Shown piece by piece: positions 1 to 62,934 of a DNA stretch of 64,000 nucleotides. Each line of letters begins with the position of its first letter. Positions within the stretch are counted from its first letter, which is position 1. Where the stretch lies: the NCBI GenBank assembly GCA_040388535.1, contig JAZKBR010000007.1, positions 192,862 to 256,861 on the forward strand, given 5' to 3'. This DNA is from Gemmatimonadota bacterium. Lineage in GTDB: Bacteria; Gemmatimonadota; Gemmatimonadetes; Gemmatimonadales; GWC2-71-9. The notes below the pieces were generated by a model that made no database searches, was not told the DNA's origin, and was given only the letters and a program-made list of their open reading frames with translations. The position numbers and the translations under genes are program-made.

Positions 1-1034
1 TGCGGCAACGGTGCGCGGTTCCACGAACCGTGGAACGCGAGGAAGGCACCGCCATTGAAGCCGGCACCGAACGCGGTTCCGGTGTAGAACGTCAGCGCGA
101 GCGGTGCCCAGTGTCCCGGGAACGCAATCAGCGGCTGGGTCTTCTGGCCGCACTCACCCTGCTTGATGCCATCGCCGCCATACTCGGGCGCCTGCACTTT
201 CTGGTGGGCAATCGGATCGAAGTAGCAGTAGGGCCAGCCGAAGTCGGCTCCCTTCGTGATCATCCCGAATTCTTCCGCCGGCTTCTCGGCATTGTCACTG
301 TCGCTGAAGCCCCAATTGGCCGAGAGCTGATCGCGACCGTGGCTGGCACCGAAGAGGATACCCGTCGTCGGCTGGACCGCGGTGGCCATCATGTTGCGCA
401 TTCCGGTCGCCCAGCGCTCACCGTCGGTCGGCTTCTGGTTCGACTTGCTGGCATCGTAGCGCCAGATGCCGGCACGCACGGCGAGCTCGGCGCAAGGCCG
501 CTGCCCCGGAGACCTTTCCTTGCGGTCTTCGACCTGACATGAGTTGGTGTTGGAGCCGTGATCGACGAAGAGGAAACCATCCTTCCCCATTGCGAGAGTC
601 TTGGCGGTGTGCCCGCCCGTGGGCAGCCCTGAGACAACAACCGTTGCCGGGCCGTCGGGGGCGAGCGAGCCGCTCTTGTAACCGAAGCGCATCACCTGAT
701 CGGCCGGAGCGAAGTAGACCGCGTCCTTGCCGACGGCGACGCCCGTGCCGGAACCGGCCACGAAGGTTGCGGTCGTGTCGGAATGGCCATCCTTGTCCCG
801 ATCACGCAACAGGAAGAGTCCGCCGGCGCGACCCTGCGCGGCGACGAAGAGATCCCCGTTGGGAGCCACGGCGATGTGTCGCGCGCCGGGCACGGTCGCG
901 AAGAGCGTGGCGCAGAAGCCCTTGGCCAGCGTCAGCCCGCCATTATCGGTATCGCACTTCGGCGGAGCGGGATTCCGGAAGGCGAGCAGCGCCAGCGCGG
1001 CGACCGGAAGGACCAGGAAGGAAAAGCGTCGCAT
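1..1034 (-). CDS. Secreted sorbosone-dehydrogenase-like propeller, third tandem copy (3' end beyond window)
   Basis: The minus-strand frame opens at an ATG (1034-1032) and stays open to the window edge, giving about 344 residues without a stop. The start MRRFSFLVLPVAALALL is a signal peptide. Downstream it matches its two neighbours: a Cys-rich N-terminus, a GWPYC motif, FPGHWAP, and AFHGSWNRAPLP at the edge. These belong to the PQQ-dependent sugar/sorbosone dehydrogenase-like family of six-bladed propellers, which act outside the cytoplasm. Substrate and cofactor cannot be read from the sequence. The next gene upstream ends 87 bases away and a perfect TATAAT lies in that gap, so this copy may have its own promoter. 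Truncated by the window, not by mutation. Confidence 0.85.
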   Translation of the reverse strand, partial: MRRFSFLVLPVAALALLAFRNPAPPKCDTDNGGLTLAKGFCATLFATVPGARHIAVAPNGDLFVAAQGRAGGLFLLRDRDKDGHSDTTATFVAGSGTGVAVGKDAVYFAPADQVMRFGYKSGSLAPDGPATVVVSGLPTGGHTAKTLAMGKDGFLFVDHGSNTNSCQVEDRKERSPGQRPCAELAVRAGIWRYDASKSNQKPTDGERWATGMRNMMATAVQPTTGILFGASHGRDQLSANWGFSDSDNAEKPAEEFGMITKGADFGWPYCYFDPIAHQKVQAPEYGGDGIKQGECGQKTQPLIAFPGHWAPLALTFYTGTAFGAGFNGGAFLAFHGSWNRAPLP

Positions 1035-1081
1035 GGGAGCCACGGAGTCGGAGGTTCTGAAACGGGACGACCGAGCTTTCA

Positions 1082-1087
1082 ATTATA
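1082..1087 (-). promoter_or_regulatory. Candidate -10 box (TATAAT) for the third propeller copy
   Basis: A perfect TATAAT on the minus strand in the 87-base gap between the second and third sorbosone-dehydrogenase-like genes, about 48 bases before the ATG at 1034. No good -35 is visible at 16-18 bp spacing. A small GTCGC/GCGAC hairpin lies just upstream (about 1100-1113). Inference from consensus only. Confidence 0.4.
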
Positions 1088-1121
1088 GCGTATCAGGCAG
1101 TCGCGGTAGCGACGGCCGGAA

Positions 1122-2372
1122 TCAGCGCCGGATCGCGAGCCGTGGTTCGATCCGGTAGATCAGGCCGTGATCGTCATCGGCGACGTAGACGATGCCGGCT
1201 GACCCCACTGCCACACCTGAAAGGCGCAGATCGCCGAGGGGACCCGACGACCGGAGCAGGACACGGGGCGTGCCGGCCGGCGCTCCGGTGGCACTGAGGG
1301 GCAGATAAATCAGGTAGTGGCCGTCCTCCGGTAGCGGGGCCCGGCTGCGTGAGCCATGGAAAGCGATCAGCATCCCCTGCCCCCAGGTCGCGGGCCAGGT
1401 GGTGGGCGCGAAGGTGAGGGCCATCGGCGCCCAGTGGCCGGGGAATCCTCCTGCGGGAGCCGTCTTGCTGGCACAGCGTGTTTCGGGCGAGGTGCTGGAT
1501 TGATATTCGGGAGCCGGGATCAGCGTCGTGCCGGTCGCGGTGTAGTTGCCCATGCAATACGGCCAGCCATAGTCCGCGCCGGTGCGAATCTCCACCAGCA
1601 GCTCGGCCGGCTGCATCGCCGACTCCTCCGCCGACCATTTCCAGATCTTGCCGAGAAAATCCCGGCCGTGGGTCACCGCCCAGACGCGTCCATTGGCGGG
1701 GTCGACGCCGATCGCCATGGCGTTGCGGAGTCCAGTCGCCTCACGACTTCGCGCCCACTCGCCGTCACCCGAGGCCGGAGGCGTGAAGCGCCAGATTCCG
1801 GCGCGAGTTCGCAGATCGGGGCAAGGGAAATTCCCCGGCGCGGCGATGTCTTCATCGGGTTGACAGTTGTCGCTCGCCGACCCGAACGAGACATGCAACG
1901 CGCCATCGCGTCCGAAGGCGATCCCCTTGGCGTTGTGGGCATAGCCGTTACCCGATTCCGGCAGATGCGTCGCGATCACCTCCGGCTCCCCGACCGGGGC
2001 GCGCGCATTCGCCGGCCAGCGATAGCGGTAGATCGAGTTGTCGGACGCGAAGTAGAGCCACCCATCACGCCACGCAATGCCGCTCCCGCCCACTCCCGGG
2101 CCGAAGGCAATGGTCGAATCGGCCCGGCCATCGCCGTTCTGATCGACGGCGCGGAGGAGGCCCGGCGCCGTGCGCGTTGCAGCGACCACGGTACCACCGG
2201 GAACCACAGCGAGATGCCGAACCGCGCCGACCCGACTCGCGAAGACCCGAACACAGAAACCAGCAGGTACCGTGAGTTTGGTGAGGTACCCGTCGCAGTC
2301 AACGACTTGCGCGGGGGTGCGGCCGACAATCAGGCAGAGTAGTGCCAGGCCGCGAAGCAAACGGGGGGTCAT
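1122..2372 (-). CDS. Secreted sorbosone-dehydrogenase-like beta-propeller, second tandem copy
   Basis: 416 residues with an N-terminal signal peptide (residues 1-21, ending TPAQ). Family features in order: YLTKLTVPAGFCVRVFAS near the N-terminus, RHLAV, a DQNGDGRAD calcium-like loop, GWPYC, FPGHWAPMAL, IAFHGSRSRAPLP and a final VYVADDDHG blade. The family is the six-bladed PQQ-dependent sugar dehydrogenase-like fold, periplasmic or extracellular. PQQ binding and the substrate are not proven by sequence. The start ATG overlaps the stop of the copy upstream (ATGA at 2369-2372), so the two are probably translated together. It shares whole motifs with both neighbours, so the trio arose by tandem duplication. 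Confidence 0.85.
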   Translation of the reverse strand: MTPRLLRGLALLCLIVGRTPAQVVDCDGYLTKLTVPAGFCVRVFASRVGAVRHLAVVPGGTVVAATRTAPGLLRAVDQNGDGRADSTIAFGPGVGGSGIAWRDGWLYFASDNSIYRYRWPANARAPVGEPEVIATHLPESGNGYAHNAKGIAFGRDGALHVSFGSASDNCQPDEDIAAPGNFPCPDLRTRAGIWRFTPPASGDGEWARSREATGLRNAMAIGVDPANGRVWAVTHGRDFLGKIWKWSAEESAMQPAELLVEIRTGADYGWPYCMGNYTATGTTLIPAPEYQSSTSPETRCASKTAPAGGFPGHWAPMALTFAPTTWPATWGQGMLIAFHGSRSRAPLPEDGHYLIYLPLSATGAPAGTPRVLLRSSGPLGDLRLSGVAVGSAGIVYVADDDHGLIYRIEPRLAIRR

Positions 2373-3610
2373 CGGAGTGCTCCGGTCGGGTGTCGTTCAA
2401 GGCGATAGATCCGGCCGTGGTCGTCATCACTGAGGTAAACCGTGCCACCCGGCGCCACGGCAACCCCTGAGAGACGCAGCAGGCCGGGCCGGCCGGCTGC
2501 GGACACAAACTGCTGGTTCGACCCGCGGAGCTGGCCCCGGGCATTGAACGGCACGAAGAAGACACCGTGCCCCTGCTCGGGAAGCGGCGCGCGACTGCGC
2601 GAGCCATGGAAAGCAATCAGCAATCCATTGCGCCACGGCGCCGGCAGTTCCTTGGTAACGACCGTCATTGCCATCGGTGCCCAGTGGCCCGGGAAACCCA
2701 TCGCCGGCGAATTCCGGGTCGCACAATCGACTTCACGGCGACCGCTGTAATCGGGGGACCGCACCAGGGCGGTGCGACGAGCGGTGTATTCGCCATGACA
2801 ATACGGCCAGCCGAAGTCAGCACCGCGGATGACATCGACGAGGAGTTCGGCCGGCTGATCGGCCGAGGTGGAGTCAGGCCAGCCCCAGACGCGGTTGAGA
2901 AAGTCGCGGCCGTGGGTCGCCGCCCAGAGATGGCCGGTGGTGGCATCACTCGCGATCGCCATGGCGTTGCGGAGTCCGGTTGCGTAGCGCTCGCCGTGCC
3001 ACTCAGCGCGCCCTGCCGTCGGCGTGAATCGCCAGATCCCGGCACGGGTCGCGAGCTCATCGCAGGGCCATTTCCCCGGCGATTCCTTCCCGCGGTCGGC
3101 GACCTGGCAGTTGTCTGAGCCGGAGCCGATCGAGACGTATGCGGCGCCGTCCCGTCCGATGGCAATCCCCTTCATGTAGTGCGCCGATCCCTTCGTTCTG
3201 CCGGGCAGACCGCGCGCGATCCATTCGCCGGAGTCGGCGGGCGCCTTGGCACCAGCGGGCCAGCGGTAGCGAATGACCCCTTCATCAGCCGCGAAATAGA
3301 GCCAGCCCTGCTGCCAGGTCACGCCGGTGCCGCCCAGCCCGGGGCCGAAGGGCACCACCTGATCGGCAACGCCATCGCCGGTCGTGTCCCGGAGTCGGAG
3401 CAACCCCGGCCGAGTCTTCGTCGCCACCACAATGGTCCCGGAGGGGTGGACCAGCAGATGCCGGACCGCGCCGACCCGCGACGCGAAGAGGCGGACGCAG
3501 TAGCCGGCGGGCGCCACGACCGGTGTGGCGGCCCCGGCGCAGTCACGGGGCTGCTGGAGCGCGAGCAGGAGGGGGAGGAGCATTCCGAAAGCTAGGCGGG
3601 CCCGGCGCAC
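2369..3610 (-). CDS. Secreted sorbosone-dehydrogenase-like beta-propeller, first tandem copy
   Basis: 413 residues from a GTG start at 3610; an in-frame ATG at 3583 would remove nine residues, but GTG keeps the positively charged MRRAR n-region of the signal peptide. Motifs match the next two genes: GYCVRLFASRVGAVRHL, GVADQVVPFGPGLGGTG, GWPYCHGEY, FPGHWAPMAM, IAFHGSRSRAPLPEQG and VYLSDDDHGRIYRLE. It is the first gene of a minus-strand set of three paralogues and is divergent from ettA, with only 29 bases between the two starts. Family assignment is firm; enzymatic substrate is unknown. Confidence 0.85.
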   Translation of the reverse strand: MRRARLAFGMLLPLLLALQQPRDCAGAATPVVAPAGYCVRLFASRVGAVRHLLVHPSGTIVVATKTRPGLLRLRDTTGDGVADQVVPFGPGLGGTGVTWQQGWLYFAADEGVIRYRWPAGAKAPADSGEWIARGLPGRTKGSAHYMKGIAIGRDGAAYVSIGSGSDNCQVADRGKESPGKWPCDELATRAGIWRFTPTAGRAEWHGERYATGLRNAMAIASDATTGHLWAATHGRDFLNRVWGWPDSTSADQPAELLVDVIRGADFGWPYCHGEYTARRTALVRSPDYSGRREVDCATRNSPAMGFPGHWAPMAMTVVTKELPAPWRNGLLIAFHGSRSRAPLPEQGHGVFFVPFNARGQLRGSNQQFVSAAGRPGLLRLSGVAVAPGGTVYLSDDDHGRIYRLERHPTGALR

Positions 3611-54535: not shown

Positions 54536-55852
54536 TCACGGCGATGGATCGTCCGCGGGACGCTCGGTCACGAGCCACGTCAGCAGCGCGGCAACACCTA
54601 AAGTCACCGCACCACCCACGGCCTCCATCGGCCGGTCCCGGATCACCACCAGCAACGTCCAGAGGGAGAAACCCGCGAAGAAGAGTGGAATCCACGGGTA
54701 CGCCCAGACGCGGTATGGCCGCGGCAGGTCGGGCTCGCGGCGGCGCAGGATGATGACACCGAGTACGGCCAGAAACGTGAAGAGCGTGAGCGTGAAGCCG
54801 GCGTAGGTCAGGATCCCGTCGAATGAATCGGTGAGCACGAAGGCCAGCGCCAGCGCACCCTGCAGCAGCACGGCCCTCGCGGGCGAACCAATGGCAGTGC
54901 GCTGCGCCAGCGGTCGTAGTGGCGGCAGGTCTTCGGCCATCGCTTCGATCACGCGAGGCCCTGCCAGTGTCATGGCACTGATCGAGGAGACGAGCAACAG
55001 CGCGATCACCGCGCGCATCAATCGCCCCCCCGCCGCGCCGAAGATCTGTTCGCCGGCAATCGCGCCCACATCGATCTGACCGGCGAGATTCTCGATCAGT
55101 GTGGTGCGGAGGAAGATCCAGTTGAGCCCCACGTAGAGCGCCGTGACGAGCAGCGTGCCCAGCGCGAGGGCGCGTGGCACGTTGCGCTCGGCGTTGACGA
55201 CTTCCGCCTGGAAGTATGCCGCGGCATTGAAGCCGGAATACGCGTAGGAAACGAAGACCAGCGAGAGCGCGAACGAACCGCTCGCGATGTTGCCCAGCGA
55301 ACTCGCCGCCGGCGCGAACGTCATCCCCGAATCGGGACCCCGGATCCAGCCGACACCGATGAATGCGAGAATGAGCAACACCTTGATGGCCGTGACGACA
55401 ACCTGCACTCGGCCGCCGACCTGCGGCGCCAGCAGATGGACACCTGTGGCTGCGAGGATCGCGAGGATGCCGAGCGTGCGCGCCGGGATGCCAAGCAACG
55501 GCCCGGCGTATTGACCCAGCGCCATCGCCGCGAGTGCCACCGGTGCCGCGAACCCCACCGCAACGGAGACCCAGCCGGCCACGGTGCCGAGGCCAGGGTG
55601 ATAGATCCGGCCGAGGAACCGGTACTCGCCCCCCGAGCCACGGATCGCGGCGGAGAGTTCGCCGTAAGTGAGCGCGCCGGCCAACGCGATCAGCCCGCCG
55701 ACGAACCAGAGCGCGAGCAGGGTGAAGCCGTCGGTGGTCTCCTGCACTTGCAGCCCCAGCGTCACGAACACCCCGGTGCCAACGATGTTGGCCACCACGG
55801 TGGCGAGTGCGGCCGAGAAGCCGAGGGGACGAGGCGAAGGCGGTGTGGTCAT
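54536..55852 (-). CDS. APC-superfamily amino-acid permease
   Basis: 438 residues from the ATG at 55852; ATG at 55867 and a still longer frame are open, but the family starts near PRPLGFSAALATVVANIVGTGVF. About 12 membrane helices. Helix 1 carries the substrate motif NIVGTGVFVTLG; GELSAAIRGSGGEYRFLGRIYHPGLG and AYSGFNAAAYFQAEVVNAERNVPRAL are the second and helix-6-7 region motifs. Similar to LAT-type and cationic amino-acid permeases. Substrate not predictable. Divergent from the GH109-like operon. Confidence 0.9.
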   Translation of the reverse strand: MTTPPSPRPLGFSAALATVVANIVGTGVFVTLGLQVQETTDGFTLLALWFVGGLIALAGALTYGELSAAIRGSGGEYRFLGRIYHPGLGTVAGWVSVAVGFAAPVALAAMALGQYAGPLLGIPARTLGILAILAATGVHLLAPQVGGRVQVVVTAIKVLLILAFIGVGWIRGPDSGMTFAPAASSLGNIASGSFALSLVFVSYAYSGFNAAAYFQAEVVNAERNVPRALALGTLLVTALYVGLNWIFLRTTLIENLAGQIDVGAIAGEQIFGAAGGRLMRAVIALLLVSSISAMTLAGPRVIEAMAEDLPPLRPLAQRTAIGSPARAVLLQGALALAFVLTDSFDGILTYAGFTLTLFTFLAVLGVIILRRREPDLPRPYRVWAYPWIPLFFAGFSLWTLLVVIRDRPMEAVGGAVTLGVAALLTWLVTERPADDPSP

Positions 55853-55938
55853 GGCGAGGTTGTACATCGAAGATAGCGTCGCGCGGTGTGCCGGCGCGTC
55901 ACACGACCGACAGGTGCCTCGCGCCAGCGCCGGCGACC

Positions 55939-55947
55939 TGCTAGAAT
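55939..55947 (+). promoter_or_regulatory. Extended -10 promoter of the GH109-like operon
   Basis: TG, one base, TAGAAT (55942-55947): an extended -10 like the one at 53815. It ends six bases before a GTG (55954) that is in frame with the GH109-like gene, and about 57 before the ATG at 56005. No -35 visible. Confidence 0.45.
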
Positions 55948-56004
55948 CCGGCCGTGGCCACTGTCCCCCGGTCCACGCCGACCCACCCCACACGGATCCC
56001 GCTC

Positions 56005-57372
56005 ATGTCGCACGGTTCTCCCGACGCGTCGCTCTCGCGCCGCGACCTGCTCAAGGTGGCCGGTGCCACCGGTGCGGCGTTTGCGCTCTCCCCCGAACTC
56101 GCGGACGCTGCCGCGCCTCCGGTCTCCCCCCTCGCGCGCGCCGCCACGATGATGGATGTGCCGTTCGAGAAGCACGCCAAGGTTCGCATCGCGATCGTCG
56201 GGACCGGCTTGCGAGGCAAGTCAGTGCTGGGTGAACTGCTCGCCGTCGACGGTGTCCAGATCACCGCCCTCTGTGACATCGTCCCCGAAAAGGCGCAGCG
56301 TGCGGCGAAGATGGTAACCGACGCGGGCCAGCCGGCGCCTACGCTCTACACCAGCGGCGAGCGTGCCTTCGAGCAACTGGTGGAGCGCGACGACATCGAC
56401 ATTGTCTACACGGCGACGCCATGGCCCTGGCATACACCGGTCTGTCTCGCCGCCCTGAAGGCCGGCAAGCACGCGGCGACCGAAGTGCCGGCGGCGACCT
56501 CGCTCGAGGAGGCCTGGGCCCTGGTCGACGCGTCCGAGAAGTCGCGCAAGCACTGCCTGATGATGGAGAACTGCTGCTACGACTTCAACGAGATGCTCGT
56601 CGATACCATGGTCAAGCAGGGCCTGTTCGGCGAGGTCCTCTATGCCGAGGCGGCGTACATCCACGACCTCAGGGCGCTGCTGTTCGAGGACCGGGACGAG
56701 GGACTCTGGCGTCGGCTGCCGCATACCAACCGACAGGGCAACTTCTACCCGACCCATGGGCTCGGGCCCGTGGCGTGGTATCTCGACATCCACAAGGGCG
56801 ACCGGTTCGACTACCTCGTCTCGATGTCGACCGCAGAGCGGGGCCTGTCGCTCTGGCGTGAAGCACATGTCCTGAAGGAGAGTCCGAAGTGGCGCGAGAC
56901 CTACGTCGAGGGTGACCTCAACACCTCGCTCATCAAGACAATGCTCGGCAAGACCATCCTGCTACAGCATACCGTGAGTTCTCCCACGCCGTACGACCGA
57001 CTCAACTCCATCCGCGGCACGAAAGGCGTCTTCAAGGACTACCCCGCGCGCTTCTTCCTCGATGGGCAGCAGGGCGGCGAGCAGTTCAAGCCGATCGACG
57101 AGTTCAAGGCGCAGTATACCCATCCCCTCTGGCAGCGCGTGGGCGAGATCGCGCGCGCCAAGGGCGGCCACGGCGGCATGGACTACATCATGGCATACCG
57201 GCTGGTGGAGTGCATGCGGGAAGGATTGCCGCCCGACTTCAACGTCTATGACGCCGCAGCGTGGAGCGCACCATGGCCGCTCAGCGAAGCCTCACTCAAG
57301 AAGGGGAGTGCCCCGATGAAGTTCCCTGATTTCACCCGCGGTGTCTGGCAGCAGCAGCGGAAGGGCGCATGA
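56005..57372 (+). CDS. Exported Gfo/Idh/MocA oxidoreductase, GH109-like
   Basis: 455 residues from the ATG at 56005; the GTG at 55954 (adding 17 residues) would be a leaderless start and cannot be excluded. Tat signal with R12-R13 (LSRRDLLKVAGATGAAF). NAD-binding site IAIVGTGLRGKS (66-72), then TPWPWHTPVCLAALKAGKHAATEVPAATS and the striking MMENCCYDFNE, PYDRL and KGGHGGMDYIMAYRLV, which match the GH109 alpha-N-acetylgalactosaminidase-type branch. These use NAD in a redox-assisted hydrolysis of a sugar bond. Three more genes follow, all overlapping, so it probably releases the sugar that the symporter imports. Confidence 0.85.
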   Translation: MSHGSPDASLSRRDLLKVAGATGAAFALSPELADAAAPPVSPLARAATMMDVPFEKHAKVRIAIVGTGLRGKSVLGELLAVDGVQITALCDIVPEKAQRAAKMVTDAGQPAPTLYTSGERAFEQLVERDDIDIVYTATPWPWHTPVCLAALKAGKHAATEVPAATSLEEAWALVDASEKSRKHCLMMENCCYDFNEMLVDTMVKQGLFGEVLYAEAAYIHDLRALLFEDRDEGLWRRLPHTNRQGNFYPTHGLGPVAWYLDIHKGDRFDYLVSMSTAERGLSLWREAHVLKESPKWRETYVEGDLNTSLIKTMLGKTILLQHTVSSPTPYDRLNSIRGTKGVFKDYPARFFLDGQQGGEQFKPIDEFKAQYTHPLWQRVGEIARAKGGHGGMDYIMAYRLVECMREGLPPDFNVYDAAAWSAPWPLSEASLKKGSAPMKFPDFTRGVWQQQRKGA

Positions 57373-59141
57373 ACCCGACAACGCTGGACTGGGGCATTGT
57401 CATCGCTTCAATCGTCATCTGCTTTATCCCGCCCGTGCTGCTTGCGCGAAAAGCCGGCAGCAGCACGGCGGAGTTCTTCACCTCGGGCCAGGCGGCGCCA
57501 TGGTGGCTCATCGGCGTCTCGATGGTGGCGACCACCTTCAGCACCGATACGCCGAACCTCGTCACCAACTTTGTCCGGACCGGCGGCGTCGCGAGCAACT
57601 GGCAATGGTGGGCCTTCCTCCTCACCGGGATGGCAACGGTCTTCTTCTTCGCGCGACTCTGGCGGCGCAGCGGCGTCCTCACCGATCTCGAGTTCTATGA
57701 GCTGCGCTACAGTGGTCGCGCTGCGACGCTGGTGCGCGGCTTCCGGGCCGTCTATCTCGGCTTCTTCTTCAACTGCTTCATCATGGCCTCGGTCAATCTC
57801 GCGGCCGCGAAGATTGCCAACGTGGTGCTCGGCTGGCCGATCGGCAAGACCTTGCTCATCTGTGCCATCCTGAACGTCGTCTTCGCCGCAACGTCCGGGC
57901 TCTGGGGCGTGCTGGTCGTCGACTTCATCCAGTTCGGCATCGCCATGAGCGGCGCGTTCGCGGCCGCCTACTTCGCACTCCATCAGCCCGAAGTGGGTGG
58001 CATGGCCGGCATTGTCGCCAAGCTGCCGGCCAACACGCTCAATCTCGTCCCCGACTTCAGCGACTGGGGACTCACGTTGTCACTCTTCGTGATTCCGCTG
58101 ACGGTACAATGGTGGTCGGTCTGGTATCCCGGTGCCGAACCGGGTGGCGGCAGCTACATCGCCCAGCGGATGCTCGCGGCAAAGTCGGAGCGCGACGCCC
58201 TCGCCGGCACGCTCTTCTTCAACGTGGCGCATTACGCCCTGCGGTCGTGGCCCTGGATCATCGTCGCCCTCGCCTCGATCATCGTCTTCCCGACGCTCGA
58301 CTCGATTCGCGTCGCCTTCCCCAACGTCGATCCTTCGCTCGTGGGGCACGACATGGCCTATCCGGCGATGCTCAAGTTCCTGCCGCACGGTTGGCTTGGC
58401 GTGATGATCGCCGGTATGCTCGCGGCGTATGTCTCCACCATTGTGACGCACCTGAATTGGGGATCGTCCTACCTCGTGCATGACTTCTGGCGCCGGTTCG
58501 TCAAACCCGACGCGAGCGAAAAGCACTATGTCCTCATGGGCCGCGTCATGACCCTGCTGCTGATGGTGGCTGGTGTCGGCTTCACGTACATGCTCGACAA
58601 CGCGAAACAGGCGTTCTCGCTACTCCTCTCGGTTGGCGCGGGGACGGGCCTCCTCTATCTGCTTCGCTGGTTCTGGTGGCGCATCAATGCCTGGTGTGAA
58701 ATCGCGGCCATGGTCTCGTCGTTCGGCATGGCGGTCGGCTTCTTCATCGCCGAAAAGCAGGGCTTCGTCATCCCGGCCTCGCTCCCGCTCCTGGGAACGA
58801 TTGCGGTCACCACGCTGGTCTGGGTCACCACCGCATTCCTCACCGCACCGACCGAACATGGGACGCTCCTCGCCTTCTATCGCCAGGTTCGACCGGCCGG
58901 GCCGGGATGGCGCGCCATTCGTGAGGAGTCCGGCCTCGGCGCCTCACCCGATTCCCTCCCGCAGGCCTTCCTCGCCTGGATGCTCGGCGTCATGATGGTC
59001 TATGGGGCGCTTTTCGGAACTGGCTCACTCCTGTACGGCCGTACCGGCCCTGCCCTCTTCTGGATCACCACTTTCGTGATCAGCGCGGCGTGGCTGATCC
59101 GGCTGGTCCCGCGCCTCTGGAGTGGTGCCTCCACCGGATGA
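57369..59141 (+). CDS. Sodium:solute symporter (SSS family)
   Basis: 590 residues, ATG in an ATGA overlap with the previous stop. About 13-14 membrane helices. FTSGQAAPWWLIGVSMVATTFSTDTPN is the helix-1/2 region with the sodium-site pattern; LGFFFNCFIMASVNLA, TSGLWGVLVVDFIQFG and AGMLAAYVSTIVTHLNWGSSYLVHDFWRRF are family segments. It resembles SGLT-type sugar transporters with W-rich C-terminus. Expected to import the product of the GH109-like enzyme with sodium. The next gene starts in its stop codon. Confidence 0.9.
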   Translation: MNPTTLDWGIVIASIVICFIPPVLLARKAGSSTAEFFTSGQAAPWWLIGVSMVATTFSTDTPNLVTNFVRTGGVASNWQWWAFLLTGMATVFFFARLWRRSGVLTDLEFYELRYSGRAATLVRGFRAVYLGFFFNCFIMASVNLAAAKIANVVLGWPIGKTLLICAILNVVFAATSGLWGVLVVDFIQFGIAMSGAFAAAYFALHQPEVGGMAGIVAKLPANTLNLVPDFSDWGLTLSLFVIPLTVQWWSVWYPGAEPGGGSYIAQRMLAAKSERDALAGTLFFNVAHYALRSWPWIIVALASIIVFPTLDSIRVAFPNVDPSLVGHDMAYPAMLKFLPHGWLGVMIAGMLAAYVSTIVTHLNWGSSYLVHDFWRRFVKPDASEKHYVLMGRVMTLLLMVAGVGFTYMLDNAKQAFSLLLSVGAGTGLLYLLRWFWWRINAWCEIAAMVSSFGMAVGFFIAEKQGFVIPASLPLLGTIAVTTLVWVTTAFLTAPTEHGTLLAFYRQVRPAGPGWRAIREESGLGASPDSLPQAFLAWMLGVMMVYGALFGTGSLLYGRTGPALFWITTFVISAAWLIRLVPRLWSGASTG

Positions 59142-59959
59142 ACCACCCCGCCACCAGCGCGATCGTGCTCGCGCGCGGCCTCGGGACGCGGATGCGTCGC
59201 GAGGCCGTCGGGGTCGTGATCGATCCGGTGCAGGCCGCCGCCGCCGATCGCGGCCTTAAGATGATGATTCCGGACGCGCGCGGACGACCGTTTCTGCTGC
59301 ATCTGCTGTCGAGCCTCGCCGACGCCGGCATCAGTGACGTCTGCCTCGTGGTTGCTCCGGACCACGACATCCTGCTCGACTACTTCGCTCAGCATCCCGC
59401 GCAACGCTTGCGCATCAGTTTCGCCATCCAGGCTGAGCCACTCGGCACCGCGAACGCGGTCCTGGCGGCCGAGTCATGGCGAGCAGACCGCGACGCCCTC
59501 GTGCTCAATGCCGACAATCTCTATCCAGTCGAGGCCATCAGGGCGATGGTGGCACTCGACGGGCCCGGGCTCGCCGCGTTCGATTTCGCTGCCCTCGTGC
59601 GCGAGGGAAACATCGATGCAGCCCGTCTCGCCGCGTTTGCGATTCTCGAGATTCGTCCCGATCACATGCTCGCGCGCATCATCGAGAAACCCGACCCGGC
59701 CCAGCTCGCTGCGGCCGGGCCCGCGCCGTGGGTGTCGATGAACCTGTGGCGCCTCGACTCCGCGACGATCGCAGCATGCCGTGACGTTCCGAAGTCGGCG
59801 CGCGGTGAGTTCGAGCTGCCCGAAGCGATCGCACTGGCGATCAGCCGGGGCGTCGCAGTTCACACGGTCCGCATCCGTGCCGGCGTACTCGACCTGTCGG
59901 CACGTGGCGATATCGCGTCAGTGGCGACCCGACTCGCAACCCGGGAACCGACAGCGTGA
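59138..59959 (+). CDS. Sugar-phosphate nucleotidyltransferase-like protein
   Basis: 273 residues from the ATG in an ATGA overlap at 59138. The N-terminal Rossmann motif LARGLGTRM (residues 11-19) is GxGTR with the first Gly of the usual GGxGTR replaced by Arg; K41 can be the second phosphate-binding residue. LVLNADNLYP supplies a metal-binding Asp and ARIIEKPDP the sugar-side EKP motif. It fits NTP_transferase enzymes that make NDP-sugars, with a shortened C-terminus (no hexapeptide acyltransferase repeats). Coupled to a GHMP kinase (GTGA overlap), so it probably activates the phosphorylated sugar. The sugar is unknown. Confidence 0.82.
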   Translation: MNHPATSAIVLARGLGTRMRREAVGVVIDPVQAAAADRGLKMMIPDARGRPFLLHLLSSLADAGISDVCLVVAPDHDILLDYFAQHPAQRLRISFAIQAEPLGTANAVLAAESWRADRDALVLNADNLYPVEAIRAMVALDGPGLAAFDFAALVREGNIDAARLAAFAILEIRPDHMLARIIEKPDPAQLAAAGPAPWVSMNLWRLDSATIAACRDVPKSARGEFELPEAIALAISRGVAVHTVRIRAGVLDLSARGDIASVATRLATREPTA

Positions 59960-61281
59960 CGCGCACCTGGGCCGATCGGGTTGCGGCCCTGGGTCTGCAG
60001 GGTCGCAGCGCGCTCCTTGCCACGGAGCGCTTTGCGGAGGTCGAGCGCCGCTTCGCCGAGCGCTTCGGGAATACTGCCACGGCGCGCGCGTGGTGGGTGC
60101 CGGGTCGCATCGAGGTCCTCGGCAAGCACACCGATTACGGCGGAGGTCGCTCGCTGCTGGCGGCGGTCGAGCGCGGCTTCCATGTCGTCGCACGACCGCG
60201 GACCGATGGCCTGATTCGCCTGCTCGACGCTTCCTCCAACGCGATGCTGTCGGTGCCGCTCGCTGCCGAGGTCGAGCCGCGCCCAGGACACTGGACCGAC
60301 TATCCGATTTCCGTGATCCGACGCGTCGCGCGCGACTTCCCCCGTGCCACGACCGGTCTCGACATGGTGATTCGTTCGTCGTTGCCGGCCGCGTCCGGAT
60401 TGTCGTCCTCGAGCGCCCTCGTGATCGCCACCTTCCTGCCGCTCGCGAGCGTCAACAACCTGCGACAGACGGCCGAGTGGCAAGCAGCATTTGCCAATGA
60501 CGATGCCCTCGCGGGCTATCTCGGGGCCGTCGAGAACGGTCGCGTCTTCGGCAGCTTCCCCGCTGATCGCGGCGTCGGCACGCACGGCGGCAGTGAAGAC
60601 CACACCGCGATCCTCCGCTGCCGCGCGGGAAGGCTGTCGCAATACCATTTCCTGCCGGTGACCCCCGAGGCCGACTTCGCGCTCCCCACAGGCTGGACCT
60701 TCGTTGTGGGAGTCTCAGGCGTCCACGCGGCGAAGGCGGGACGGGTTCAGGCACACTACAACGCGCTCTCGGGGGAACTCTCGACGCTCCTCGCACGCTG
60801 GTGCGAGGCGACCGGTCGCAGCGATCCCTCGCTCTTCGCCGCCCTGCGCAGTGCGCCGGACGCCCCGCCACGGCTCGCTGCGATCGCAGAAGCAACATCG
60901 GCCGCACTCGCCGCCCGGCTGGCGCAGTTCCGCGATGAAGTCGAGGTGATCATTCCGGGCGTGGTGGCAGCATTGGCGAATGGTGATCTCGGACGCGCCG
61001 GAGAACTCGTGGCGCGATCGCAGTCCCACGCCGAGCGGACCCTTGCGAATCAGGTGCCCGAAACTGTTTACCTCGTCCACAGCGCCCTCGCGCACGGAGC
61101 CGCAGCCGCGTCAGCGTTCGGAGCGGGATTTGGGGGGAGCGTCTGGGCACTGGTGCCCGAAGCATCGGCGGCGCAGTTCCGCGCCGCCTGGCTCGAAGAC
61201 TATATCGAGCATTTTCCGGAGCATCGGCAGCGCGCCGACGCCTTCCTCTCGGCGGCTGGCCCCGCCGCGACCGAGATCTGA
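59956..61281 (+). CDS. GHMP sugar kinase related to galactokinase
   Basis: 441 residues, GTG start in a GTGA overlap. Motif 1 is VPGRIEVLGKHTDYGGG (48-64), motif 2 LPAASGLSSSSAL (143-155), the catalytic segment GTHGGSEDHTAIL keeps Asp215, and motif 3 is GAGFGGSVWAL. In galactokinases motif 1 is GRxNxIGEHTDY; here Asn and Glu are Glu and Lys (K57), near the sugar hydroxyls, so the substrate is probably not plain galactose. Anomeric (C-1) phosphorylation is expected. Together with the nucleotidyltransferase it would give an NDP-sugar. Confidence 0.85.
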   Translation: MTRTWADRVAALGLQGRSALLATERFAEVERRFAERFGNTATARAWWVPGRIEVLGKHTDYGGGRSLLAAVERGFHVVARPRTDGLIRLLDASSNAMLSVPLAAEVEPRPGHWTDYPISVIRRVARDFPRATTGLDMVIRSSLPAASGLSSSSALVIATFLPLASVNNLRQTAEWQAAFANDDALAGYLGAVENGRVFGSFPADRGVGTHGGSEDHTAILRCRAGRLSQYHFLPVTPEADFALPTGWTFVVGVSGVHAAKAGRVQAHYNALSGELSTLLARWCEATGRSDPSLFAALRSAPDAPPRLAAIAEATSAALAARLAQFRDEVEVIIPGVVAALANGDLGRAGELVARSQSHAERTLANQVPETVYLVHSALAHGAAAASAFGAGFGGSVWALVPEASAAQFRAAWLEDYIEHFPEHRQRADAFLSAAGPAATEI

Positions 61282-62934
61282 TCAGGGCGCCGTCGCGCTC
61301 ACATCCTTGGTCTTGACGTAGAAGTTGCGGTCGACCGCGAACGCCGCTGGTGCCGACAGCTTCACCGGGATCGTCTGCCACTCTGCCGTCGGGTGGACCA
61401 CCACATAACTCGAATCCGCGGTCGTGACCGGCAGCGGCATATCGAAGCCGTTGACCACGTTGGTCCAGCGATACGAGAGCGTGGTACCGGCGATGCGGTA
61501 CTCGAGCACCGGGATCTTGATCGTGGTGAGATACTGTTCGAAGACCTTGCTCAGGTTGATGCCGGATTGGGCACTGATGTAATCCTCGATCTGCGCGCCA
61601 CTCACCGTCTGGTGCCAGAACGTGCGATTGAGCCCGCGCAGGATCGCGAGCCACTTGTCATCGTTGTTGATGATGTGACGGATCGTGTGCAGCATGTTGC
61701 CGCCCTTCGGGTACATGTCACCCGAACCCTGATTCTGGACCCCGAAGGTCCCCTGGATCGGCGAGTCGTTCCGGATGCCGCGCCGATTGCCGATGTTGTA
61801 GTCCTCGCCCGCCTTCTTGCCGAACTTGCACTCGGTGAAGAGCCCCTCGGCATAGTTCGCAAAGCTTTCGTGCACCCACATGTCGGCCACGTCCCTGGAC
61901 GTGATGTTGTTGCCGAACCATTCGTGGGCGCTCTCGTGCACGATGATGAAGTCCCATTTCATCCCGTACCCGGTGCCGGAGGCGTCGCGCCCCTTGTAGC
62001 CATTGGCGTAGTCGTTGCCGTACGCGACTGCACTCTGATGTTCCATCCCGTTGTGCGGTGATTCGATCAGCTTGTAGCCGTCCTCATACCACGGATACGG
62101 GCCGAACCAGTGTTCGAAGCACTGCAGCATCTCCCTGGCCTGCGGAAAGGTCCGCTGTGCCGCGGCGAGGTGATAATCGAGCGGATAGAAGTCCATCGTG
62201 AGCGGACCATTCTCGCCCTGATACTGATCGCTGTAGTGGGCGTAGTTGCCCGCGGACACGGCGATGTCGTAGTTGTTGATCGGGTTGCGGACGAACCATT
62301 CCCACGTGCTGGTGCCGTTGGCGTGATGGGTCACCCGACGCAGCCGGCCGTTCGAGACATTCATCAGCGGATCGGGCACCGTGATCGCTACCCGCTGGCT
62401 GTCAGGTTCGTCCGTCTGCGAGTCCTTGTTCGGCCACCAGACCGACGCGCCGAGCCCCTGGTTCGAGGTCACGATCCAGGGCCGCGAGAGCGAATCCTTG
62501 ACCCAGGTGAAGCCGCCATCCCAGGGCGGGCGCTTGGCGGGTCGAGGCTTGCCGTGGTAGTACACGGTGATCGCCTTCTCACTGCCGACCCGCTGAGGCG
62601 ACACCAGCATCGCGAAGAAGGCATTGCCGTCGCGACGGAACCGGACGCGGCGACCTTCCTGCACCATGCTGTCGACTTCGAGCGGCGTCTGGAGATCGAG
62701 CTGCATTTCCTTCGCCGCGCTCCTGACGCGATAGCGAATGATGTTCACACCGGTGATGCTGCTGTCGGCTGGACGAATGGTGACGTCGAGGTCGTAGAAG
62801 GCCACATCCCACCAGGCTCGCTGGGGGGTCACGGTCCCCCGGAGCGTATCGGCGTGGGTGAACACCTTTGGCTGCTGGGCGGCGAGCGAGCCGGCCAGCA
62901 CGGGAACCAGGGCAACGAGACACCAGCGACGCAT
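61282..62934 (-). CDS. Secreted M1-family zinc aminopeptidase
   Basis: 550 residues. Signal peptide 1-19 (GSLAAQ). An N-terminal beta domain (about 30-210) is followed by the thermolysin-like domain: substrate motif GMEHQSAVAYGN (the GxMEN equivalent), zinc motif VHESAHEWFGN with the third ligand Glu 18 residues later (WVHESFANYAE). It resembles the M1 family without the long C-terminal helical domain of classical PepN, as in other short secreted forms. It removes N-terminal residues from peptides outside the cell. Its stop abuts the kinase gene's stop with no gap. Confidence 0.92.
   Translation of the reverse strand: MRRWCLVALVPVLAGSLAAQQPKVFTHADTLRGTVTPQRAWWDVAFYDLDVTIRPADSSITGVNIIRYRVRSAAKEMQLDLQTPLEVDSMVQEGRRVRFRRDGNAFFAMLVSPQRVGSEKAITVYYHGKPRPAKRPPWDGGFTWVKDSLSRPWIVTSNQGLGASVWWPNKDSQTDEPDSQRVAITVPDPLMNVSNGRLRRVTHHANGTSTWEWFVRNPINNYDIAVSAGNYAHYSDQYQGENGPLTMDFYPLDYHLAAAQRTFPQAREMLQCFEHWFGPYPWYEDGYKLIESPHNGMEHQSAVAYGNDYANGYKGRDASGTGYGMKWDFIIVHESAHEWFGNNITSRDVADMWVHESFANYAEGLFTECKFGKKAGEDYNIGNRRGIRNDSPIQGTFGVQNQGSGDMYPKGGNMLHTIRHIINNDDKWLAILRGLNRTFWHQTVSGAQIEDYISAQSGINLSKVFEQYLTTIKIPVLEYRIAGTTLSYRWTNVVNGFDMPLPVTTADSSYVVVHPTAEWQTIPVKLSAPAAFAVDRNFYVKTKDVSATAP

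Follow-up and report, generated by a model that had tools for sequence, protein, structure and literature searches.

The window analysed here, a stretch of 64,000 nucleotides from a soil-type Gemmatimonadota bacterium, carries at positions 56005-61281 four open reading frames on the + strand, chained by the four-base overlaps that a preliminary description of the sequence had reported. The GH109 gene (56005-57372, +; product P0001, 455 aa) shares ATGA at 57369-57372 with the SSS symporter gene (57369-59141, +, 590 aa), which in turn shares ATGA at 59138-59141 with the nucleotidyltransferase gene (59138-59959, +; P0003, 273 aa), and this is joined by GTGA at 59956-59959 to the kinase gene (59956-61281, +; P0004, 441 aa), which has a GTG start.

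According to the gene calls, an intergenic space at 55868-56004 separates the operon from a divergent gene for an APC-type permease (54536-55867, -), and the gene layout makes this space the probable site of the operon promoter. The downstream neighbour of the kinase gene is convergent and ends at 61282. Flanked in this way by genes of the opposite strand, the four genes stand as a unit of their own. All gene calls were made by a simple codon-score script, which missed some genes (e.g., the GH109 gene of locus L096, recovered by genome search). At the other end of the window, at 3-3583 on the - strand, the same calls place three adjacent genes in one similarity cluster, as tandem paralogues.

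Families and motifs of the four proteins

The identities given in the preliminary description, i.e., a Tat-exported GH109-like enzyme, a sodium symporter, a nucleotidyltransferase and a GHMP kinase, agree with profile matches above the respective cut-offs. P0001 has the Rossmann domain of the Gfo/Idh/MocA family (PF01408, 56.7 bits against a cut-off of 24), followed by the GH109 C-terminal domain (PF21252, 160 against 27), and it aligns with the solved GH109 enzyme of A. muciniphila (6T2B) at 353.8 bits and E=1.2e-104. The catalytic residues of AmGH109A are Tyr226, His259 and His404, as quoted in PMC10755693, and by motif and spacing their equivalents in P0001 are Tyr218 (in YIHD), His251 (in YPTHG) and His389 (in GGHGG), all three invariant across 12 aligned sequences. 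For orientation, the NAD+-dependent sulfoquinovosidase SqgA of family GH188 and AmGH109A are 15% identical (PMC10755693).

A twin-arginine motif, SRRDLLK, occurs at residue 11 of P0001, with the RR invariant in the 12 aligned sequences, and the Tat signal scores 21.1 bits with the NCBIfam model, above its cut-off of 16.7, and 22.2 with the Pfam model, slightly below its cut-off of 22.7. P0001 is, from these features, predicted to be a Tat-exported, NAD-dependent GH109 glycosidase, namely an alpha-N-acetylgalactosaminidase. If the enzyme keeps its NAD bound, export by the Tat route would make sense; glucose-fructose oxidoreductase, which is found among the matches of P0001, provides a case for comparison.

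The symporter belongs to the SSS family (PF00474, 90.2 bits against 22.8), its nearest solved structure is the sodium/glucose cotransporter 2xq2 (E=1.6e-25), and its homologues in linked loci across the class are 54-78% identical; it is predicted to be a sugar importer. P0003 belongs to the NTP_transferase superfamily (PF00483, 44.9 against 21.2), with a G-x-G-T-R-M motif and an invariant Lys that are kept in 23 relatives, and it is predicted to be a sugar-1-phosphate nucleotidyltransferase. Its top NCBIfam matches, AglF and Arch_glmU, are both far under their cut-offs, and P0003 and P0004 alike fall far short of the cut-offs for all characterised NCBIfam equivalogs.

In P0004 the galactokinase signature, GHMP N (PF00288) and GHMP C (PF08544) all score above cut-off, which places the protein in the GHMP superfamily. 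Its AlphaFold model (pLDDT 93.8) matches galactokinase 2dei with a VIA Z of 44 and the human GalNAc kinase 2a2c with a Z of 41, and P0004 is accordingly modelled, and predicted, as a galactokinase-fold GHMP sugar 1-kinase. With the galactokinase equivalog TIGR00131 it scores 95.8 against a cut-off of 226.65, so that it is not filed as a galactokinase. The signature reads PGRIEVLGKHTDY in P0004 and PGRVNLIGEHTDY in galactokinases; this means that GKHTDY stands in place of the galactokinase sugar-site signature GEH[TI]DY. The lysine, Lys57, is invariant in 22 aligned sequences, and GKH[TV]DY is present in 34 of 34 kinases of linked loci. Of the GHMP_N matches in the genome, P0004 alone is of galactokinase type, and the remaining two are read as IspE and ThrB.

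Conserved linkage and exchanged enzymes

The nucleotidyltransferase was found in 47 and the kinase in 44 of 198 Gemmatimonadota genomes, with both in 43. Close GH109 homologues (at least 60% identity) occur in 29 genomes, and the kinase lies within 6 kb of them in 28 and at 6.2 kb in the 29th. If the four genes are numbered in the order of the window, the arrangements 1-2-3-4, 1-3-4 and 2-3-4 are all seen in the class. Because the linkage recurs in this way it is more than chance, and the arrangement, which had earlier been called unusual, is common within the class; the search of other genomes, proposed at the outset as a check on whether the genes cluster elsewhere, thus upheld the clustering. 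In some loci symporter and nucleotidyltransferase are fused into a single open reading frame of 871-873 aa (L072:6605-9220; L117:5377-7992, for L075/L117; L136:5371-7992; L164:5258-7879), and such a fusion ties transport to activation.

The few exceptions to direct adjacency are L079 (genome G166) and L095 (G069), where nucleotidyltransferase and kinase are several kilobases apart though still near one another. In genome G063 (contig C7:9447-13734) the GH109 gene has an internal stop codon, the nucleotidyltransferase was not found and the kinase match is in two pieces, apparently a decaying copy of the cluster. Genes for ATP synthase subunits, a cupin and an RmlA-like protein that are conserved upstream in family f2 were taken to reflect location, not function.

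In a wider scan of species-level genomes, at least 456 kinase relatives were confirmed. In the best 80 of these loci, which come from Planctomycetota, Acidobacteriota, Gemmatimonadota and Actinomycetota records, the nucleotidyltransferase is directly upstream of the kinase in 63. The scan was seeded with GKH[TV]DY, and it therefore says nothing on the universality of the lysine. In Planctomycetota and Actinomycetota the pair frequently occurs without GH109 or SSS, from which it follows that kinase and nucleotidyltransferase are not tied to release by GH109. In Arachnia and Dermabacteraceae, the genes around the pair offered no clue to the sugar. At L121:4881-6809 and in the Phycisphaerales loci L140, L145 and L149 a NagB/PIG-L fusion adjoins the nucleotidyltransferase-kinase pair, again without GH109; these loci are an amino-sugar context.

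Several clusters without GH109 encode instead a protein of about 690 residues with a twin-arginine N-terminus (genes at L118:1982-4054, L147:8882-11038, L151:9240-11306 and L072:4259-6448, alignment A3). Sequence and profile searches gave no Pfam, NCBIfam or significant PDB match for this protein, and its profile has one borderline match to an alpha-galactosidase (E=0.019). Its structure could be modelled with modest confidence (pLDDT 68), and Foldseek pairs the model with FpGalactosaminidase and with alpha-galactosidases of GH36 at an E of about 1e-17 (prob 1.00). Against 8x1b the VIA Z is 17.1 with an overall rmsd of about 18 A, a distance so large that the domain placement in the model is unreliable. 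The GH36-like protein, first noticed in this analysis, is possibly a new glycoside hydrolase family.

The GH36-like enzyme occurs in 8 of the 198 genomes, none of which has GH109. When the 44 kinase genomes are sorted by release enzyme, 35 have GH109 only, 6 the GH36-like enzyme only, none both and 3 neither (Fisher p = 1.2e-5, a value that ignores shared descent). On the kinase tree the GH36-like label requires about 3 changes, at least 2 of them forced by starred branches, and one switch falls within the window's own genus (G072). In G072 and some other genomes the GH36-like gene and the kinase gene are on different contigs. The counts suggest that an exported GH36-like enzyme replaces GH109 as the release enzyme.

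This distribution also bears on the role of P0001. As a member of Gfo/Idh/MocA it could instead be a soluble dehydrogenase that acts on sugars in a 3-keto-glycoside route and merely shares an operon with transporter and kinase, and genes resembling TIM-barrel sugar isomerases and GMC oxidoreductases do occur close to some relatives of the cluster. We consider this highly improbable: P0001 keeps the C-terminal domain of GH109 together with the three catalytic residues of that family, and among the kinase genomes an exported GH36-like glycosidase is encoded in the majority of those without GH109 and in none of those with it.

A second exchange concerns the activating enzymes. In other Gemmatimonadota families, homologues of GH109 (37-53% identity) and of the symporter (52-57%) are accompanied by a different kinase and a different nucleotidyltransferase; in loci L184-L203 GH109 lies with a galactokinase, and divergently from these the symporter lies with a nucleotidyltransferase related to 3pnn. 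A BLAST match of 37 residues is all that the two nucleotidyltransferase types share. The kinases of this second set pass the galactokinase equivalog (241-272 against 226.65 in the four cases scanned). More distant GH109 homologues occur in 89 genomes, with a kinase match within 6 kb in 27 of the 89. That the plan is conserved though its enzymes are exchanged is the strongest argument for reading the operon as a pathway.

The second-set kinases keep Glu or Asp where P0004 and its relatives have the invariant Lys57. The Glu of galactokinase is, we assume, placed near C6 of the sugar, and Lys57 in its stead could bind a sugar that is acidic at C6, such as galacturonate or N-acetylgalactosaminuronate. 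Such a substrate we regard as unlikely, even with a lysine so constant in one set and an acidic residue retained in the other, since the GH109 enzymes in the literature examined act on neutral GalNAc and since Lys57 is accompanied by a change from Asn to Glu four residues earlier (PGRVNLIGEH to PGRIEVLGKH). Together with this Glu, Lys57 may form a compensating salt bridge. A bolder version is distinctly unlikely. In it, the GKHTDY kinase and its nucleotidyltransferase would form a new and widespread pair for the anomeric salvage of a galacto-sugar charged at C6 (e.g., N-acetylgalactosaminuronate), and the sugar would be supplied by two exported glycosidases that are unrelated to each other, one of them founding a new GH36-related family.

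Predicted pathway, sugar and fate

Computation shows the order and the families of the genes, the catalytic residues and export signal of P0001, a conserved linkage and an exchange of enzymes between lineages, and from these we infer every reaction of the following scheme, together with its sugar, nucleotide and fate. P0001 would fold with NAD+ in the cytoplasm and then be exported by the Tat route, and outside the inner membrane it would cleave from glycans a sugar of D-galacto configuration in alpha linkage, most probably GalNAc. The free sugar would be brought in by the SSS protein together with sodium, the galactokinase-fold kinase would add a phosphate at C1, and the nucleotidyltransferase would convert the sugar-1-phosphate to an NDP-sugar, probably UDP-GalNAc, which could serve as a donor without further change or, after epimerisation to UDP-GlcNAc, enter cell-wall synthesis or catabolism. 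We hold it to be fairly probable that the operon is such a unit of sugar acquisition and activation. The same order of release, import, C-1 phosphorylation and NDP activation had been proposed from the window, and it gains support from the conserved clusters, the symporter-nucleotidyltransferase fusions, the mutually exclusive release enzymes and the second set, in that a plan conserved while its enzymes are exchanged speaks for just these steps acting on an alpha-linked galacto-configured sugar.

With respect to the sugar, the GH109 enzymes characterised in the literature examined act on alpha-GalNAc (including PMC10755693 and PMC11992087), and GH36 spans both alpha-GalNAcases and alpha-galactosidases, as seen in the literature and the Foldseek matches. 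These activities, combined with a kinase fold common to galactokinase and GalNAc kinase, point to the D-galacto configuration with GalNAc as first candidate, and GalNAc is our best guess. Consider instead that the GH109 enzyme has drifted to alpha-galactosides, so that the operon would be a bypass of the Leloir route through Gal, Gal-1-P and UDP-Gal. The GH36-like replacement resembles alpha-galactosidases and galactosaminidases equally, the sister kinases score above the galactokinase cut-off, and P0004 has no other galactokinase-type kinase beside it in the genome; still, the catalytic and neighbouring GH109 motifs of P0001 are intact and the substrate of the characterised GH109 enzymes examined is GalNAc, which leaves galactose rather unlikely. 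Of the proposal that a GalNAc-type sugar is turned into a UDP-GalNAc-like donor, the comparative evidence thus sustains a galacto-configured sugar such as GalNAc, not UDP as the nucleotide.

As to fate, the preliminary description took the lack of an isomerase or aldolase in the operon to favour reuse over degradation. This does not follow, because a B. thetaiotaomicron locus of similar logic, PUL BT4240-50, serves growth on GalNAc, with the GalNAc 1-kinase BT4240 of this GH109 locus being required (PMC11992087). Furthermore, the genome of the window encodes a GalE-like SDR, whose nearest solved structures are UDP-glucose 4-epimerases (E=2.5e-72), and a NagB/PIG-L fusion above the nagB cut-off, a fusion of the kind that in Phycisphaerales adjoins the kinase-nucleotidyltransferase pair. 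A mainly catabolic operon, leading from GalNAc-1-P over UDP-GalNAc and UDP-GlcNAc to GlcN6P and allowing growth on GalNAc-bearing glycans, is therefore a real possibility, with a chance somewhat below even: no NagA above cut-off was found in the genome, the genes for the GalE-like SDR and the NagB/PIG-L fusion both lie outside the operon, and the NDP-sugar step would be an energy cost if degradation were the goal. Between reuse and catabolism, about equally plausible, we favour neither.

If the acquisition-and-activation reading is true, rarely cultured bacteria possess a line from the outside to an NDP-sugar with its own transporter, and a function is at hand for a kinase-nucleotidyltransferase pair of several phyla and for an exported GH36-like family that has no Pfam or NCBIfam model. 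The swaps, i.e., GH109 or GH36-like enzyme and two types each of kinase and nucleotidyltransferase, open the substrate to a direct test, since all versions should share one sugar.

Relation to known systems

The closest parallel is PUL BT4240-50, with the GalNAc kinase BT4240, the MFS protein BT4242 and the GH109 enzyme BT4243 (PMC11992087). As predicted for the operon, this PUL unites in a single locus the release of GalNAc by GH109 outside the cytoplasm, a transporter of the inner membrane and a kinase that acts on GalNAc at the anomeric position. The B. thetaiotaomicron locus is linked to mucin degradation with GH2, an M60 peptidase and SusCD, and PMC11992087 mentions no nucleotidyltransferase, which the present operon has. 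Its kinase has the APH fold and its transporter is of MFS type, whereas here the kinase has the GHMP/galactokinase fold and the transporter belongs to SSS.

With its GHMP domains and galactokinase-like model, P0004 in fact falls outside the APH-fold kinases of the AmgK, NahK and BT4240 types. AmgK lacks the GHMP fold. In the AmgK/MurU salvage of MurNAc in Pseudomonas (PMC5371407, PMC12346966) an anomeric kinase and a dedicated nucleotidyltransferase likewise turn a recovered sugar into an NDP-sugar; the sugar there comes from the cell's own peptidoglycan, unlike what is proposed for the present operon. Salvage of cell-wall MurNAc had come to mind through an upstream NlpC/P60-like gene and a match of P0003 to MurU, and it was rejected: P0003 scores 24.7 with the MurU model NF045761 against a cut-off of 250, there is no APH kinase, and no peptidoglycan genes were seen in the conserved neighbourhoods.

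Fkp is a single fused protein that makes GDP-fucose, and we know of no GH109 or SSS gene linked to it. This L-fucokinase/GDP-fucose pyrophosphorylase of B. fragilis (PMC11982464, PMC6468028) shares with the predicted pathway the use of a GHMP kinase and a pyrophosphorylase to salvage an imported free sugar. The P0004 model matches Fkp at Z 27, well below the Z of 44 that it reaches with galactokinase.

NahK acts downstream of a phosphorylase-type pathway, one that to our knowledge contains neither GH109 nor SSS. As an N-acetylhexosamine 1-kinase it phosphorylates GalNAc or GlcNAc at C1 on the way to a UDP-sugar (PMC6264712), as is proposed here, with the APH fold and thus unlike P0004. No described precedent for the whole combination was found in the literature searched, which covers only part of the field.

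Human GALK2 (2a2c), an N-acetylgalactosamine 1-kinase with the galactokinase fold, matches the P0004 model at Z 41, with 23% identity; P0004 has Lys57 at the Glu position of the GEH motif, where GALK2 presumably carries the Glu. The parts of the operon are thus of known kinds, and their combination is widely conserved and seemingly undescribed.
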